Positions 4,094 to 61,300 of a stretch of DNA of 64,000 bases are shown here, piece after piece (within the stretch, counting starts at the first letter, position 1; every line of letters starts with the position of its first letter). The stretch is from Acanthornis magna (Eukaryota; Chordata; Aves; Passeriformes; Acanthizidae). A model generated the notes under the pieces. The model was not told the origin of the DNA, ran no database searches, and worked only from the letters and a program-made list of their open reading frames with translations. The DNA is taken from positions 12,728,001 to 12,792,000 of the forward strand of contig JAWUZG010000032.1 in the NCBI GenBank assembly GCA_036785705.1, written 5' to 3'. Made by a program: the position numbers and the translations under genes.

Positions 4094-4227
4094 GTGCACA
4101 TAGAGTTCCTCATCTCACTGAACAAATTAGGAAAAATATTTTAATAGTGAATACTTGCTAGTGCACACAGAGTTCCTCATCTCACTGAACAAATTAGGAA
4201 AAATATTTTAATAATGAATACTTGCTA
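4094..4227. repeat. 67-bp tandem duplication, two copies
   Basis: Two adjacent units (4094-4160 and 4161-4227) both begin GTGCACA and end ATACTTGCTA. They differ at only about two positions (CATAG versus CACAG, and ATAGTG versus ATAATG). The near identity in otherwise unique DNA indicates a fairly recent local duplication. It contains no coding potential. Confidence 0.95.
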
Positions 4228-36702: not shown

Positions 36703-36855
36703 GAGAGTCTGTCCTGCTTTTGGCTGCGATAGAGTTCATTTTCTTCTTGGTAGCTTATTCAGTGTTGTGGTTTGGTACTTAGTATGAGAATAATATTGAT
36801 AACACACTGATGTTTCAGTTGTTGCTAAGTAGTTCTCACCCTAGGTCAAGAATTT

Positions 36856-37888
36856 ATTGCAGAACAGATTTTCTGCACTAACGAACAGTCAAAATATTGC
36901 TGATGGCTATAAAGATGAAGGGCAGAGACTTCTTGACTGTGTAGTGAAAAACATGGAAAATTGGGTATCTTCAGGACAATGGATAGTTTCATCTTACTCA
37001 CCAGTGAAAGAAAAGCAGAATTTCTCAGGCTTCTTAGACTTCTTGCCCGAACAGTTCCATCTGGAGTGTTATGACTGCAGAGCAAACAATAACATTCAGA
37101 ACTAAATAAATTCTGTCCAATGGAACGGACAATGGAAAAATCAGCTGCCTCAGTTGAAAGCTTTAAATGCCTTGACAAAAGCAGCTGAGTTATCTGAATT
37201 AAAGAACACGATCGCTCAACCTTGCCTTCCTTTGGATTTGCAGGACAGCAAACATCAAGCTTTGGGCTGCTGAGCTTTCCTGTGAAGAGCAGCAGTAACA
37301 GGCCTACCAGTTTCTCTTTAAAATGATTTCCAGTCCTGCCAGTGCATCATCATCTGGAAACACTGTCACTTTCGAGAGCATTTCTCCTGGTTGTAATCCT
37401 CCTGCATTTGGGGCTGCATCCTTGCCGAGCAATTCTTCTGCTGTGAACTCTCCAAGCATCACTGTGCTTACAGCCTTTGGAACATTTAATTCAGCAGTAG
37501 CAACTGCTGCCTCACATTCCAGCAGTATTTTATTTGGATACACTGCCAGTGTCTCTGGACATAACATCACATCAGCATCTTCTGCACTCACAAACAATAC
37601 TACATAAAAAAAGTTATTTACACCTGACAGTGGCTGAAGAATTGAAACAATTTGAAGCAAAAAAGATTACAATGGGGAAAAATTCTTCTTAAACCACCAC
37701 CACTAGAACTTTTAAATGTTTAGGACATTCCAAGTTTATTTTGAAAGCTATAATAAAAGTTATTTTGTAACTCTGATAGAACAACCACACAATATTGTGG
37801 TTGAGTAATGAAACAAAATGTTTCCATTTCAGTTCAGTTTTGTTCCCCTTTAAGCCTTCTGCAATAATAAACTCTCAGGTAAAAAAAA
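36856..37888 (+). pseudogene. NUP42: Processed pseudogene of nucleoporin NUP42 (NUPL2), 5'-truncated
   Basis: The parent gene encodes an FG-repeat nucleoporin on the cytoplasmic side of the nuclear pore that helps mRNA export with GLE1. The copy begins inside the coding region. In the first frame it carries SSGQWIVSSYSPVK and FSGFLDFLPEQFHLE, then a stop at the point where the protein reads YLNSVQ, then LKALNALTK. A second frame holds FG-type sequence (PSFGFAGQQTSSFG, SSSNRPTSFSLK). A third has NPPAFGAASLPSNSS and the Ser-rich region. The C-terminus reads AEELKQFEAKKITMG, then LLKPPPLELLNV and a stop at 37721-37723. Several frameshifts and stops kill the frame. No intron interrupts this span, although the human gene has several. 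The 3' UTR follows, with AATAAA at 37866-37871 and A8 at 37881-37888. Identification rests on remembered human NUP42; the motif order makes it secure. Confidence 0.92.
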
Positions 37889-38020
37889 TTTAACCAGGCC
37901 AGGTTGAATGAGGCTTTGAGCAACCTGGTCTAGTGGAAGGTGTTTCTGCCCATGGCTGGGGAGTTGGAACGAGATGATCTTTAGGGTCCCTTTCACCCCA
38001 AAGCATTTTATGATTCTGTG
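37889..38020 (+). mobile_element. CR1 3' tail fused to the NUP42 retrocopy
   Basis: Immediately after the A-run of the retrocopy, CCAGGCCAGGTTGAATGAGG, GAGCAACCTGGTCTAGTGG, GTTTCTGCCCATGGCTGGGG and ATTTTATGATTCTGTG give a CR1 3' end of about 130 bp in the same orientation. The host LTR resumes at 38020 with GACTTTTCAG. The segment probably belongs to the same insertion as the NUP42 copy. Confidence 0.93.
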
Positions 38021-41000
38021 ACTTTTCAGTCTCCCATGCTCTGGCAGTGAGCAGGTGCACAAGAAGCCAGGAGGCAGCAAGGCCAGGACAGCTGATCTGA
38101 ACTGGCCAAAGGGCTATGCCATACCATAGAATGTCATGCTCAGTATCTAAACTGGGGAGAATAGGCTGGGAGGGGGAGGTCGCATTTTGGGGATGGGGTG
38201 GGCAGCAGTCAGTGGGTGGAGAGCAATTGTGTTGTTCATCACTGATTTCTCTTGGGTTTTATTTATATCTCTTTCTCCTTTTCAATTAAATTTTATTCTT
38301 ATTATTGTTACTATTATCATGTTTATTAGCACTAGTATTATTATATTTTACTGTATTTGAATTCTAAAACTATTCTTATCTTAACCTGTGGGTGTTACCT
38401 GTTTTTCTGATTCTCCTCCCCAGGACATCAAGACTGCATGGGGGAGTGAGAAAGCACTTGTGTGGTTGATGCCTGGGGTTAAACCAGAAGAGAGTCAAGA
38501 GTCCAAGAGTCCTAGGCAATAATCTCTATTCCAACAATATTTATGTCCATATAACTAGAAAGCAACTAGATAAAATGCATGAGTAGTGTTAGGAGTGGCA
38601 CCATTCTGCCAAACTGTGGCTCTTACCATTACCCAACATCATCAGGTTCCTTTTTCCCTGTGTCCCTGGAAGCTTGTACTCCTGGATATCCAGTGGTCTG
38701 TCTGCAATAGGACAGCTTCAGAGAGCATTTGCTTAGAGTGGTTACTGGCCCAGGACTTTCCATTTTGCCTGGCTGAGAGCTGAGTTATGGCAAATAGGAA
38801 AAGCATCTTTATTACTCCCCAATAAGCACATATGTTTCCTATCCAACAGCTCATTAGCTGAGTTCATGTAATAGTTCTAGGATACAAATCCTACCCTTAC
38901 CTCAGCATCATGAGGGTGGTGAGTGAGACAGTTCTGTTTCCAAAGGCTGTTTCAATGTATCCCTGTGGGCTGTCTATTGCTAATACCCATCATACATATC
39001 CAAGGATCCCTATAAAATTCAGAATGAAATTAAGTATATAGCAGGAGCTTAAAAATTATATTTCCAGGACAGGTACTTAACACTGGATCCAGTGTAAAAC
39101 ATGATACAGGATTTGGGTGCCCAGCCTGTTCATGAATTGCTGAATATCACTTCCCTAGGAGTCTGGAGACATCTTGTGTGGAGATCACAGATAGGTACTA
39201 TGTTTTGCAGACAATAAGTGCAAAATCCATGAAAGAAGCCATAGCAACCACATTTTCAATGGATTGACTTTCATACTTAAGATAGAACATATCTTTAAAT
39301 GCTTTATTGTGTGAACAACATAGTGATTCTTGGATTTTTAAATAGGAATTTCCTTCAGCCATTCTAAAAAGCAAAAGAATAACCGTACAAATTAAGACAG
39401 ATTTGTTACCCAAATTATCAACCTAGCTTGTTTACCGGGAACAGTGAGATCGTATTAGCATTACCATAGCCTAGATATTCTTCTCCTCAGCAAGAATGGC
39501 TCCTGCATTATCCCAGCTATCCTGCTCATGAAACTGAAGCCCTTCACCTGGGCTACAGAACCAAGGTGTTGTGGGAAGTACAGTCATAAGGAAAGGGAAA
39601 ATTATGCCATCCCAGACCAAGCTGTCAGCCCATCACAAACTCTCTTACCCAATATCAGAAAGTAAGAGGCCCTAAAAAAATGTACACACTTGGGGAAATC
39701 TTCCTGGAGGTATCTCTTGGATGAACAAGGACAGAATCAGCCTGGATCGCTTGATGTAACTGACAGTCCCTTACCGAGTTCTCCTTACCTGAACTTTCTC
39801 TTGCTCCTGGAAACTTGATATTACATGACTTTTATTAACCCAGAGCACTGTAAAGGAATAGCTGAAATTCAGCACCTACATTGGCATAAAGAAATGCCCA
39901 CAGAGGAGCATTCCTCAGCCTACAGTCTAAAGGTAAAATATACATCGTCAAAGACAAAGGGACACTTTCCCTATTATGCATTCAAAAGATGAAAATTGCA
40001 TTTCAAAGGCCTGAATGTGCTCCTAGGAGGGAACACAGAAGGGAACACAGCTCCTTTCACCTTCAGGAAGTGAAGTGGTCATTTATGCCAAAACCTTTCA
40101 GCTGGGAGGACACTGCTCAAATTATATCAAACATTTGACTAAGGGCACAAAAGTACATGAAGCCCCATTCAGTATTTGGGTGACAATGTTTGCTCATGCA
40201 AATTATATCCACCATACTCACAGCTTTTGGAAACACAAAAAAAGTTGTGTTTTGTGGAATTTACAACTTTAATATTCAGACACCTTTTTTTGTGACTCTT
40301 ACTGCCTATTGTTATCTCCTATGAACCAGGGTTGTTTGTGTCAGTATGAAATCCAAAACCAAGCCATCAGAGTCAGTCTTCTATCCCCCTCACCAGAACA
40401 TGGCATTTGCATTAAAATAATAGCTCAACATAAGAAAGAGCCTAAAATTCTGAACAGAACAAAATTATATGCATAATAGATTTTTTTTTTACTTTGGTAT
40501 TCCTATTTAATAGCTTAGTTCATCTACTGAGACTAATGAACAGAACAACTTGTCTAATGTTTACTGAGTTACTGGAATTCACAAAACCATCTAGAATCCG
40601 TTTGATTTTGTGTGTTCACATTATTAATAACCTATTCAACTGCATTTTTCCCTCTGCAGAGGATATGTGCCAGGTGTATGTTTGAATCACATGTTTGTAT
40701 TTGTGGTCCAAACCCATCAAGAGACAGAGAGCAGTCATTCTTTTTAAATCTTCTCATTGGGCACAACATGGACTACATGCTCTAGCTTTACCAGAGGTAA
40801 AGTGTGTCAAATCAACACAGGAATGGCTATAACTGTTTTACATAAAACATTTTACATATGTTTTACATATTTCTAGCTTCCAGTTCAAACCCAAGGAGAA
40901 AAGTGTGTATGTAATTTTCAGAGTTAAATTTGTAAATTATGTTCTTCTTTCCTCTGTATTTCTCAGTTTCAGAAACTGCATGGATTACAGGGAAGAGCGT

Positions 41001-48289: not shown

Positions 48290-48825
48290 AACTGATGTGA
48301 TATTCTCCATTCTGGATTATACATCCAGCTCTGCAGTCTCCAGCACAGGAAGGACACTGACCTATTGAAGCAAGTTCAGAGGAGGGCCATAATGATGATC
48401 AGAGGGATAGAGCACCTCTCCTGTGAGGAAAGGCCGAGAGAATTGGTATTGTTCAGCCTGGAAAAGACAAGGCTCCAGGAAAACCTTATAGCAGCATTCC
48501 AGTACCTAAAGGAGGCTCTCTGGAAAGCTGGAGAAGAACTTTTTATAAGGGTCTGTAAACACAAGACAAGTGAAAATGTCTTTAAACTGAGAGTAGGTTT
48601 AGATTGGATATTTTGAGGAAATGTTTTACTGTAAGGATGATGTGGCACTGGAACAGAGAAGTTGAGAATGTCCCACTGCTGGAAGTGTTTGAGGCCAGGT
48701 TGGATGGGGCCCTGAGAAAGCTGGTCTAGTGAAAGGTGTCCATACCCACGGCAAGGGAGTTGGACTACAGAATCTTTAAGGTCCCTTCAAACCCAGGCCA
48801 TTCTATGATTCTATGATTGAGACCC
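48290..48825 (+). mobile_element. CR1 LINE 3' fragment including the end of ORF2
   Basis: The copy covers the last part of ORF2 and the 3' tail. One frame (48365-48616) reads QVQRRAIMMIRGIEHLSCEE and LVLFSLEKTRLQENLIAAFQ, which is the C-terminal region of the CR1 reverse-transcriptase protein. The tail has GAGGCCAGGTTGGATGGGG, CTGGTCTAGTGAAAGGTG and the terminal ATTCTATGATTCTATGATT. Stops and a frameshift make it inactive. Confidence 0.95.
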
Positions 48826-57687: not shown

Positions 57688-57895
57688 GACAGGATGAGAG
57701 CGCACAGTGTTAAGCCGCACCAGGGAGGCTTAGGTTGGACATGAGGAAGAAGTTCTTCACAGAAAGGGTGATTATAAATCGAAACGGACTGTCCAGGGTG
57801 GTGGTGGAGTCACCGCCCCGGGAGATGTTTTAGGAAAGACCGGTCGTGGCACTCTGTGCCATGGTTTGGTACGGTCACAGGCTGCGTTCGGTGAT
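57688..57895 (+). mobile_element. CR1 LINE 3' fragment in the proximal promoter
   Basis: GACAGGATGAGAGCG, GGTTGGACATGAGGAAGAAG, TTCTTCACAGAAAGGGTG, GTGGTGGAGTCACCG (57801-57815) and GGCACTCTGTGCCATGGTTT are in CR1 order. It differs from the common 3' tail in the window and matches the copy at 58704-58850. The end nearest the gene is CpG-rich and decayed. Confidence 0.85.
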
Positions 57896-58045
57896 CCCGG
57901 AGGTGACTGTGCCACCGCGGCGGTGCCGATCCCGGCAGGACAAGCTCACTCCGGCCCGCGCGGCGGCGGCCGGGAGCGGGCGGGCGCTGTGACGTGGCGC
58001 CCCGGGGTTGCCATGGTGCCGTGAGGGGCCGCCATAGCCACAGCC
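57896..58045 (+). promoter_or_regulatory. IRAK1BP1 core promoter and 5' UTR with short upstream ORF
   Basis: The region is GC-rich and TATA-less. A TGACGTGG motif (57990-57997) resembles a CRE/ATF site, and GGCCGCCAT near 58027 resembles a YY1 core. An upstream ATG at 58013 in a good context (TTGCCATGG) opens a three-codon frame, Met-Val-Pro, closed by TGA at 58022-58024. The stop is 21 bases before the main ATG, so reinitiation is possible. The transcription start itself cannot be placed. Confidence 0.6.
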
Positions 58046-58324
58046 ATGGCGCCGCCCGCGCCACTCCCTTCGCGCGTCTTCGCCGAGCTCGACCTGGCCC
58101 CGGCCCCGGCCCCGGCCCCTGCCCCGGAGGGACGCGTCGGAGCCCCGGCACTGCCCGTGCGGGAGGTGCATGTGAGCGGCAGCGCGGAGCTGAGCGCCCG
58201 CCCGGACCGGGCGCGGGTGTCGCTGCGGCTCGGCAGCCGCAAGGAGGCGGCCGTGGCGGCGCGGAGCAGCGTGTCCCGCCGGCTGCAGTACATCACCCAC
58301 AGCGCCCGCCTGCGCGGCGTCCCG
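58046..58324 (+). CDS. IRAK1BP1: IRAK1BP1 (SIMPL), coding exon 1
   Basis: IRAK1-binding protein 1 (SIMPL) is a small SIMPL/DUF541-family protein linked to IRAK1 and NF-kB (p65) signalling, acting in cytoplasm and nucleus. This exon encodes 93 residues. The N-terminus has RVFAEL, like the RVFVEL start of the mammalian protein. An Ala-Pro run follows at residues 18-27, then the start of the SIMPL domain: REVHVSGSAELSARPDRARV, LGSRKEAAVAARSSV and RRLQYITHSARLRGVP. Each matches remembered human motifs (EVQVSG, DRAQV, KEAA, DYITQS). The ATG is chosen because it has a Kozak-like ACAGCCATGG and gives the expected N-terminus. The exon ends in phase 0 at CCG|GTGAGC, where the human first exon also appears to end. 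The family protein is about 260 residues, so roughly two-thirds is missing here; later exons should lie to the right of the window. Confidence 0.94.
58097..58126 (+). repeat. GCCCCG hexanucleotide repeat coding for (Ala-Pro)5
   Basis: Five tandem GCCCCG units, the fourth with a silent G-to-T change (GCCCCT), encode Ala-Pro five times at residues 18-27 of IRAK1BP1. The unit length keeps frame, so copy number can change without a frameshift. The region precedes the SIMPL domain and is probably disordered. Confidence 0.92.
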
Positions 58325-61300
58325 GTGAGCTCCGCCGCCCGGGGCCCGCTGAGGCGCCGGGGGTCCCCCCGGGGGAAGGCGAGGGGGGCAGCGGGCGGGG
58401 CAGTTCCCGGTCCCGGGGCCTCCCCGGCCCCGCTCGGCAGCCCGCGGGCTGCGGTGCCGTCCCGCCGGGGCCCTGAGGAAAGGCGCCCGCGGAGGGCCTC
58501 GGTTTCGGCGGGAAGCAGGGGAGTGACGGGTTTGAAGCTCTCGGCCCTCTGCCTCGGGAACCGCGGGGGCATTGCTGGCAAAGCCTGCCTGTCTTTGGAA
58601 GGCTGCAGCCAGCCATGCCAGCCCCAGCGGAAAAGGTGGAATGTCGCTACCCGGGCTTTCCAACAGGTTGCTTGTTTAGCATGTGAAAGCCATCTGCTTC
58701 GACTCTTTCACGGTGGTGGAGTCACCGTCCCTGGAGGCGTTTAAGGAAAGACTGGACGTGGCACTCAGTGCCATGGTCTAGCTGACGTGGTGGTGTCCGG
58801 TCAGGGGTTGTACTGGATGATATCAGAGTGCTTTTCCAGCCTAATTGTGTGTTTTGTTCATGTGGTGCAGCTTTCACCCGTGCATGCGGATGAAACTGAT
58901 AAAGCTGTACACAGCAAGATAACCTATACCAGTATGTGTCAGGGTAACTATGTAGTTACCATAGTTTAGCAACAAATACATACAGAGCTCTTCCTCTTTT
59001 TCTTGTTCCACTTAAGTAGAGAGGTTTTGAAAAACATGGGATATGACCAAGATAGCTGAAGTGACAGAAGCCCCTTGTGGAATCGAAAAGTTCCTTTACC
59101 ACCGTAAGTTTTTTAGCCTCAGGAAGTAATTTTGCAACAATGAAAAAAGCATGGTCTTGCCTTTAAAGCTTTGTCCAAACAGTAAATGCTCCACAAGGGT
59201 GATATTTGTCCTAACAGTTGTGCTGATAATGTTTATGGATTTCACAAAAGAGTTTTGAACAGTGTTTCACACATAGGGCTCTTAAAAACAGAACAAAGCT
59301 GATCTTTTATTGAATAAGCAGTTGCTTTCAAAAGTTACTTGTTATTGAAGTTCCCTAGGAAGTCTGTGCCTTTTGAGTGTATTCACAGATGATCTGAGGA
59401 AAAAGGGAGATGATAGAGTTTTCTATGAACATCAGATTATTTAATGGAGTAAGAAAGAATTGCAGAAGGGTTTCCTGGTACTGCATGATGGTACAGTGCA
59501 AGTCAGTGTTAGTAAATGCAAAGTAAGAGAGTAAGTTACTCGGCCTAAACAGTGATGTGCCCACAGTGAAATTTTGTGCCTGCATCTCAGGTGCTGCATG
59601 CATTTGAAGATAAGTACTGGCTGCAGCTTTTCATTTCCCCAGGAAAATAGGATTGTCTGTTTTCTTTTTGAACTATTATGCTGTTACTGTAGTACCTATA
59701 CAAATTGTTCAGGAATAAAGAAGACCCCTTAGCCCCCCAAAAAGCTCATATTGCAGCTCTGGGACTAGATGGCAAACAGACATGGAGGCTGCTCTGGGCT
59801 AGATATGTGATCCTGTTCCCCGTGGTTTTCCCGAGTGCGTGGCTGGGTGCATGTCTGTCACAGGCAGCAATTGTCATGGGTTCCATTGCCATCAGGATGA
59901 CTTGTTCAGCCAAAACTGGTGCATTTTTATATGGGATTACGGGTTAAATACCTTCAGTTTCTATTAGGTGAGTTAATAGGAGTTCAAAGGGCTGGATTTT
60001 AAGAGGAGAAGACAAAGCGACTCAGTATGCATTCATTTTCATTAGCAGAGAAAACAATAAGATTTGTACCCACCACCATGGTGAGCTATCCAATTATGGG
60101 GCATTTTCATCCTGTCTCTTCGGAGTGTGGCTGGATTAGAGAAGATAGTTGCAGCTATTTATCCTACAGTGAATCCGAACTGACTTCCAGTTTTGACTTG
60201 AGACTGATTGAATTGGGGTAGTGTGGAGCATCCAACACATGGTGGATGGCACACAACAGAAGTAGGCAGGGTGCTAAATAGGTGAGTGTGCTTTAGAGGT
60301 GCTGTGTGTACCAGTCCAGGCTAGAAAAAAGAATTGCAGACTGAATTACGACCTGGACAAACAAATGGTTTTATATGGGTTTATACGGTCAGGTTCAGAA
60401 ATGTAATGTGAGCAGGCATGCAGGGTGGAGAGTGGGCTGTTTTTACAATGTGAGAGCATTCAGTGTCTTATTATAGTTACAATAATTTCACAGTAGTCTT
60501 TTTCTGGTTCGGAGATGCTGTGTGTTGGAGAATGGAAATGTTCTTTCCACTTAGTTGAGAGACTGTGAAATGCTGCCTAAGTTGTGGGTTTCTCAGTGTT
60601 AGCAAAGTGTTAGCTCTAGGGAACTCTGAGAAAAACAACATGAAGTTATTTTTTTTTCAGAGTAGTTCCCCACGGTATAATTTTTAGTGCTTTGTTCCAT
60701 CCAGTTTTAAATCACTCCACTGCTGGAGCTTTTATTTGCCTTGCAGCTTTTCCACTAACAACTCTCACTGCTGGCAATTTGTTCTTAACTGCGTTTGCTA
60801 ACTTCTCTTGTAGCTAATACCATTCTAGACAAGTGTAAAATTAATCTCTCTTCACAATCTCCATATGGTTCTAGTTATTGTAAGCTTATCTAAGGCCTCT
60901 TTAGAAATCATCTAACTGTGCTATATATTTATTTTTAATTAATCCACAGAACAATTTCCTTAACCCTTATTGTTGCTATCGTAGGAAGTCTGTGAGATCA
61001 GGAGTGTATAACCTTTGCAGCAGCAGGAGCTTGCATTAGCAGCTTGTCAGGATGCCTGAGGGCAGCACCTGATTTCCATATACATTTACACAGGATTTTA
61101 ATCAGAAATAGATGCACATAGTGACATTTATTTATAGAGTACTGTAAGTATATGCAGCACTTCAGACCCCAGAATCTGGTTTCCCCACTGATTTTACTTT
61201 CCTTGCAGCCTTCAAAGCAATCTCTCTTAATCAGCCCAGCTGCTCAAAAGTAAAATTTTCTTCTCTTTCTCTAGAAACAAACTGATTTTATATTTTCCAC

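Follow-up and report, generated by a model that had tools for sequence, protein, structure and literature searches.

A chimeric NUP42/CR1 retrocopy inside a resident LTR of the passerine Acanthornis magna

Introduction

In an ordinary processed pseudogene, the remnant of the poly(A) tail normally adjoins the target duplication directly. Other gene copies are joined to LINE sequence, and mammalian U6/L1 is one such LINE chimeric retrogene. U6/L1 is named in PMC13174262, and the MGL chimeras of Magnaporthe are described as bipartite and tripartite LINE chimeric retrogenes in PMC2104539. Law and Burns (2026, PMC13174262) place 15 of 17 human LINE-1/mRNA chimeras at the starts of transcripts; most carry a near full-length L1, and six have their end at a splice donor. 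In passerines, the origin of PittSINE is proposed to involve a switch of the CR1 enzyme onto tRNA-Asp (PMC5729268). Birds have few processed pseudogenes, and this scarcity has been explained by the need of the CR1 enzyme for the 3′ end of its own RNA (Suh 2015, as cited in PMC8665684).

Here, we analyzed a 64,000-nucleotide stretch of Acanthornis magna DNA, referred to below as the window, and describe a single locus within it that is a genuine chimeric NUP42/CR1 retrocopy. The locus resembles LINE chimeric retrogenes in that the copy of a cellular RNA lies upstream of, and joined to, the 3′ end of a LINE, an arrangement ascribed in those elements to template switching. However, the LINE here is CR1, for which dependence on its own 3′ end has been proposed, and it is joined to a protein-coding mRNA at that mRNA's 3′ end, where a poly(A) stub is left at the junction. 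As in the human LINE-1/mRNA chimeras presented in PMC13174262, mRNA sequence lies 5′ of the LINE in what was probably one insertion, whereas here the 3′ end of a transcript, with its poly(A), was captured and the CR1 part is very short. PittSINE shares with this locus a proposed switch of the CR1 enzyme to a cellular RNA; in the PittSINE account the RNA concerned is a tRNA and a SINE family followed, whereas we find an mRNA and a single copy. Finally, the locus is intronless, 5′-truncated and provided with a poly(A) stub, as an ordinary processed pseudogene would be, but its poly(A) is separated from the target by a CR1 3′ end. A literature search limited to open-licence papers, carried out mostly by listing, found no CR1/mRNA chimera of this kind.

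Results

The features of the locus are collected in Table 1. Positions 36860-37880 of the forward strand are an intronless, frameshifted copy of a NUP42 mRNA, as a preliminary description of this DNA had proposed. The read-through C-terminal piece matched human NUP42/Nucleoporin-like 2 among solved structures (7tbl_f and 6b4f_C; E 1e-11), in which the matched NUP42 chains are C-terminal pieces of 45-50 residues. The first NUP42 stretch of the window gave no credible match in solved structures or Pfam. Searching the genome of the bird itself (1.48 Gb, 1515 contigs), we found the parent NUP42 on one contig as two adjacent gene copies (G000:C28:26236276-26236874 and 26246635-26247229; L009-L011) that are 91.6% alike across ~2.5 kb of their 3′ halves. 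Two upstream exons were found, matching copy 2 only. Relative to spliced gene copy 2, five introns have no counterpart in the retrocopy, and the two sequences are identical at 800 of 1040 aligned bases, a count that includes poorly aligned UTR, FG-repeat and flanking stretches. NUP42-specific sequence begins at ~36860, and the reading frame is broken by stops and frame changes. The copy therefore has the three marks of a processed pseudogene: absent introns, poly(A) at the parental site and a broken frame. Over exons 1-4, copy and parent differ at 58 of 329 positions, the parent's own changes included. No other gene appeared among the 40 candidates scored out of 3824, which comprised the two NUP42 genes, copies of CR1 and the window itself.

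Table 1 Features of the chimeric locus (positions within the window).
Feature	Positions	Strand	Remarks
Host LTR, 5′ part, ending ...GGTCAAG	36710..36850	+	Start approximate; joined flanks align in 29/29 other copies
5′ junction AATTTATTG, place of the 9-nt GACTTTTCA	36851..36859	+	4/9 bases agree today
NUP42 coding sequence, 5′-truncated, intronless, frameshifted	36860..37720	+	
TAG stop after LLNV, same end as human NUP42	37721..37723	+	
NUP42 3′ UTR, middle aligning poorly to parent	37724..37880	+	Last stretch TCTGCAATAATAAACTCTCAGGT; parent CCTGCAGGAATAAACTTGCAGGT
AATAAA poly(A) signal	37866..37871	+	
A8, remnant of the poly(A) tail of the mRNA	37881..37888	+	Parent reads ATAAACATGTG here
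TTTAA: either filler or part of CR1, then followed by a 3-nt insertion	37889..37893	+	
CR1 3′ end, 5′-truncated, ATTCTRTG-type repeat at end	37894..38019	+	
GACTTTTCAG, 3′ copy of the target site, directly after the CR1 3′ end	38020..38029	+	Same letters in 14/29 LTR copies
Host LTR, 3′ part	38020..38490	+	End approximate

The two parent genes have both lost the ancestral stop after LLN(V) and carry an extended C-terminus; copy 2 now reads past the LLNV point to ...LLNAYDLLSLFRSNMF. In human NUP42, the C-terminus is the part whose structure is solved with Gle1. Because the window copy ends in LLNV-TAG, as the human protein does, and both parents read on, the retrocopy probably predates the loss of the stop in the parent genes, as judged by these endings.

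The stop codon, the AATAAA and the A8 of the preliminary description are all present where Table 1 places them. NUP42 homology stops 9 nt past the AATAAA and is followed by the A8. Parent and copy agree through CAGGTA and then diverge, parent copy 2 reading AATAAACTTGCAGGTATAAACATG and the window AATAAACTCTCAGGTAAAAAAAATTTAACC. The point of divergence is where cleavage 9-10 nt after AATAAA would fall, the poly(A) site being placed by the signal and the end of homology and not by transcripts. Parent DNA is also A-rich at this place, which makes the A-run by itself weak evidence, but homology ends there, and alignment to the parent thus bears out the claim that the A-run marks a natural poly(A) site. 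The five bases that follow, TTTAA, are not in parent NUP42 and, ungapped, do not fit CR1 copies. Once a 3-nt insertion (CCA) is allowed for, TTTAA differs by one base from TTCAA, which precedes GG in 7 of 19 same-orientation CR1 copies. The CR1 copies nearest in this stretch, L006 and L066, have CCAGGCCAGG like the window, with different letters upstream.

The 3′ part of the insert aligns to CR1, in agreement with the preliminary description; homology begins at 37894, however, and not at 37889 as that description had it. The CR1 ends at ~38019 in ATTCTGTG, and the locus reads ATTCTGTG then ACTTTTCAG at this point, the G being common to the CR1 end and the target. The locus accordingly shows what marks a CR1-driven insertion, a 3′ end with an ATTCTRTG-type repeat adjoining the target, and what marks a LINE chimera, the copy of a non-LINE RNA directly 5′ of a same-strand LINE 3′ end, with TTTAA between them. 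An 8-bp CR1 repeat unit of this kind is described in PMC8665684. CR1 of this type has many copies over many contigs. The CR1 part differs from the majority of copies at 14 of 126 positions (11%), and 19 other same-orientation copies differ from that majority by 5.6-13.6%; the majority was built over 29 loci, ten of them opposite-strand and unturned, and the figures quoted come from the other 19. When this CR1 copy was folded, the 3′ hairpin that CR1 RT presumably requires was not seen (z 0.81), and it may have decayed. A stem was predicted in two other folded CR1 copies, with z of -1.40 and -0.24, not clearly beyond shuffles. Rfam gave no match at gathering threshold within the window.

We next consider how often CR1 would be found in such a position. 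A run of A7 or longer lies within 20 nt upstream of one of 21 CR1 3′ ends, namely the one behind NUP42. A same-strand CR1 would lie within 6 nt of any chosen point with a probability of ~3e-4, a value that rests on 21 CR1 3′ ends in 210 kb and on a biased sample, some loci having been chosen for CR1 and some overlapping. The parent genes have no CR1 at their 3′ ends. With a CR1 3′-end profile (E 1e-3), we detected no same-strand CR1 in the 3 kb that follow gene copy 1, where the nearest CR1 is on the opposite strand ~1.4 kb away and same-strand ones occur only beyond 3 kb, and no CR1 within 8.7 kb downstream of gene copy 2.

Several other features came to light in the course of the analysis. 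Another CR1 3′ end (L005/L043; G000:C40:21360003) is followed by ATTTTCAG, which resembles the TTTTCAG after the CR1 here, perhaps by chance or through a shared target taste. A longer CR1 copy lies at 48296-48806 (+) of the window; its open frame runs towards the CR1 3′ end and, judged by eye, resembles the terminal part of CR1 ORF2. CR1-like pieces at 57792 and 58704 flank a GC-rich, first-exon-like ORF at 58025-58340 (+) that contains the start of a SIMPL domain (Pfam E 4.7e-7) and that we take to be the likely exon 1 of IRAK1BP1. At 4094-4227, there is a 67 bp tandem duplication whose directly abutting units are 97% identical and which is apparently young.

The chimera, itself an old copy, interrupts an old LTR. 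A search with 38020-38260 yielded 1145 candidate places, of which 40, the window itself included, were scored; the best of these supplied the 29 other LTR copies. The joined flanks of the window copy align through the site in all 29, five of which have 4-20 bp indels nearby, and none of the 29 compared has a larger insert at the site. Members of this LTR family that lack the insert thus display the site, and the LTR does resume immediately after the CR1, as the preliminary description had stated. Exact CAAGGACTTTTCAG is found in 9 of the 29 copies and exact GACTTTTCAG in 14, the rest having variants. As GACTTTTCAG starts directly where the CR1 ends, the target letters of the window copy itself are visible. 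LTR divergence is ~22% pairwise, which under a star phylogeny corresponds to ~11% per copy. A search of viral_contigs with the LTR pattern returned 0 matches.

At the 5′ boundary, LTR sequence can be followed as far as TCAAG, and recognisable NUP42 sequence starts with CAGAACAG; nine bases lie between the two. In parent NUP42, the nine bases before CAGAACAG are GACTTTTCA, identical to nine in the LTR target; this 9-mer is read from today's parent gene. When window sites were paired at random with points of the parent mRNA, at least 9 nt were shared in 1.2e-4 of 60,000 trials. Because such a match is rare among random pairs, the 5′ end of NUP42 probably became attached to the LTR target. In this reading, which is compatible with target-primed insertion, the cDNA would have paired with the target overhang. 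Since that overhang is the sequence adjoining the CR1 3′ end, the outer ends of both parts are tied to one target. The junction bases themselves match GACTTTTCA at 4 of 9 positions, a level reached by 21% of random 9-mers, and five changes in nine bases are more than expected (probability 0.01 at 17% divergence). A putative target duplication around the whole chimera would have a clear 3′ copy, GACTTTTCAG, and an imperfect 5′ copy that agrees at 4/9. The GAATTT/GACTTT duplication of the preliminary description is imperfect and is re-read here as the 9-bp target GACTTTTCA that is also present in parent NUP42. In addition, AATTTA occurs at 36851-36856 and 37887-37892, on either side of the NUP42 part (chance 1.3%).

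Discussion

The locus holds the copy of a spliced mRNA that ends at a natural poly(A) site, a truncated CR1 with its 3′ end, an LTR target, and nine nucleotides that target and parent share. We infer that they came together in one event and by way of a jump between templates. One insertion that carried both the NUP42 and the CR1 parts is the best reading of these data and a likely one when the two single-event routes, template jump and RNA ligation, are taken together. Of these, a CR1-driven, target-primed insertion into the resident LTR with a template jump onto NUP42 mRNA is itself probable. The A-run at the parent poly(A) site, the CR1 identity of the 3′ part and the lack of a CR1 tail on the parents support this route, which the preliminary description had also put forward and which we favour.

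In the favoured route, the CR1 enzyme would have nicked the LTR, already resident, before GACTTTTCAG. Copying of CR1 RNA would have started at its 3′ repeat, as suggested by the CR1 3′ end that stands at the target. The enzyme would have left the CR1 RNA after ~126 nt, a few bases (TTTAA) were perhaps added, and it may then have jumped to a mature NUP42 mRNA, landing on its poly(A) tail. The A8, the 3′ UTR and ~860 nt of coding sequence would have been copied next, up to the point at which base pairing between the cDNA and the 9-nt overhang of the LTR, GACTTTTCA, allowed the 5′ end to be sealed. A jump suits a junction that is located at the 3′ terminus of an RNA and has additional bases. Template jumping by an R2 RT is reported to require nontemplated addition (PMC8857657), and by analogy such addition would fit TTTAA. 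Against this route stand the 4/9 agreement at the junction, the AATTTA flanks, the unseen hairpin, the derivation of the 9-mer from today's parent and the restriction to one locus. The divergences of CR1 (14/126), LTR (~11% per copy) and NUP42 (58/329) are mutually compatible; dating does not split one from two events, as the samples are small and the NUP42 figure contains changes of the parent.

Two separate insertions at the same LTR point are unlikely. NUP42 could have come first and CR1 followed at the end of its A-tail, or CR1 could have come first and NUP42 followed at its 5′ end. The AATTTA on both sides of the NUP42 part would suit an insertion of NUP42 only, and TTTAA otherwise has no firm explanation. 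However, a second hit within a few bases would be needed (~3e-4). If NUP42 came first, no A residues or duplication were left 3′ of the CR1. If CR1 came first and NUP42 was inserted later into a target copy already changed to AATTTA, the 9-nt identity of NUP42 and LTR would be a coincidence of 1.2e-4, which favours one event. In either order, a poly(A) mRNA lacking a CR1 tail would also have to be accepted as template by some enzyme; chicken retrocopies are few, 78 in the count of PMC3136929. Within the single-event readings, ligation is the less probable route and is altogether rather improbable: a polyadenylated NUP42 mRNA would have been joined at its 3′ end to a fragment of CR1 RNA, and the fused RNA inserted by CR1 once. 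It, too, yields this order of parts, a single target and the sealing of the 5′ end, and ligation, trans-splicing and template switching are all considered for LINE-1 chimeras in PMC13174262. On the other hand, it presupposes that a CR1 fragment had a 5′ end fit for ligation and was joined to a mature poly(A) end, and it leaves the extra bases unexplained if TTTAA is filler.

Splicing of NUP42 to CR1 is unsupported because the junction follows a poly(A) stub and not an exon end. It is very improbable that NUP42 once had this CR1 in or near its 3′ UTR and that a read-through transcript was mobilised via the CR1 tail. The CR1 enzyme could have used such a transcript without a jump, but the A8 lies between the poly(A) site and the CR1, where the parent reads ATAAACATG, and neither gene copy has a same-strand CR1 in the downstream stretches given above. 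Retroposition of mRNA by LTR retrotransposons is a described mechanism, and the NUP42 copy sits inside an LTR. Yet we regard the pickup of the mRNA during reverse transcription of an LTR element as exceedingly improbable here, given that the LTR halves join in register with all 29 other copies, as after a precise interruption, and that the CR1 end would be left unexplained.

With a template jump from CR1 RNA to NUP42 mRNA as the favoured reading, the locus bears on the rule that CR1 needs its own 3′ end. A CR1-tailed mRNA copy is what this rule predicts when an mRNA gets through, and the rule thereby becomes testable. The locus would show one way in which birds can still make gene retrocopies. 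We tentatively raise the possibility, which for now we hold to be doubtful, that avian CR1 RT captures polyadenylated mRNAs via their poly(A) tails and that this is a general route to the few processed pseudogenes of birds. If true, many bird retrocopies would hide a short CR1 3′ end between the A-run and the target.
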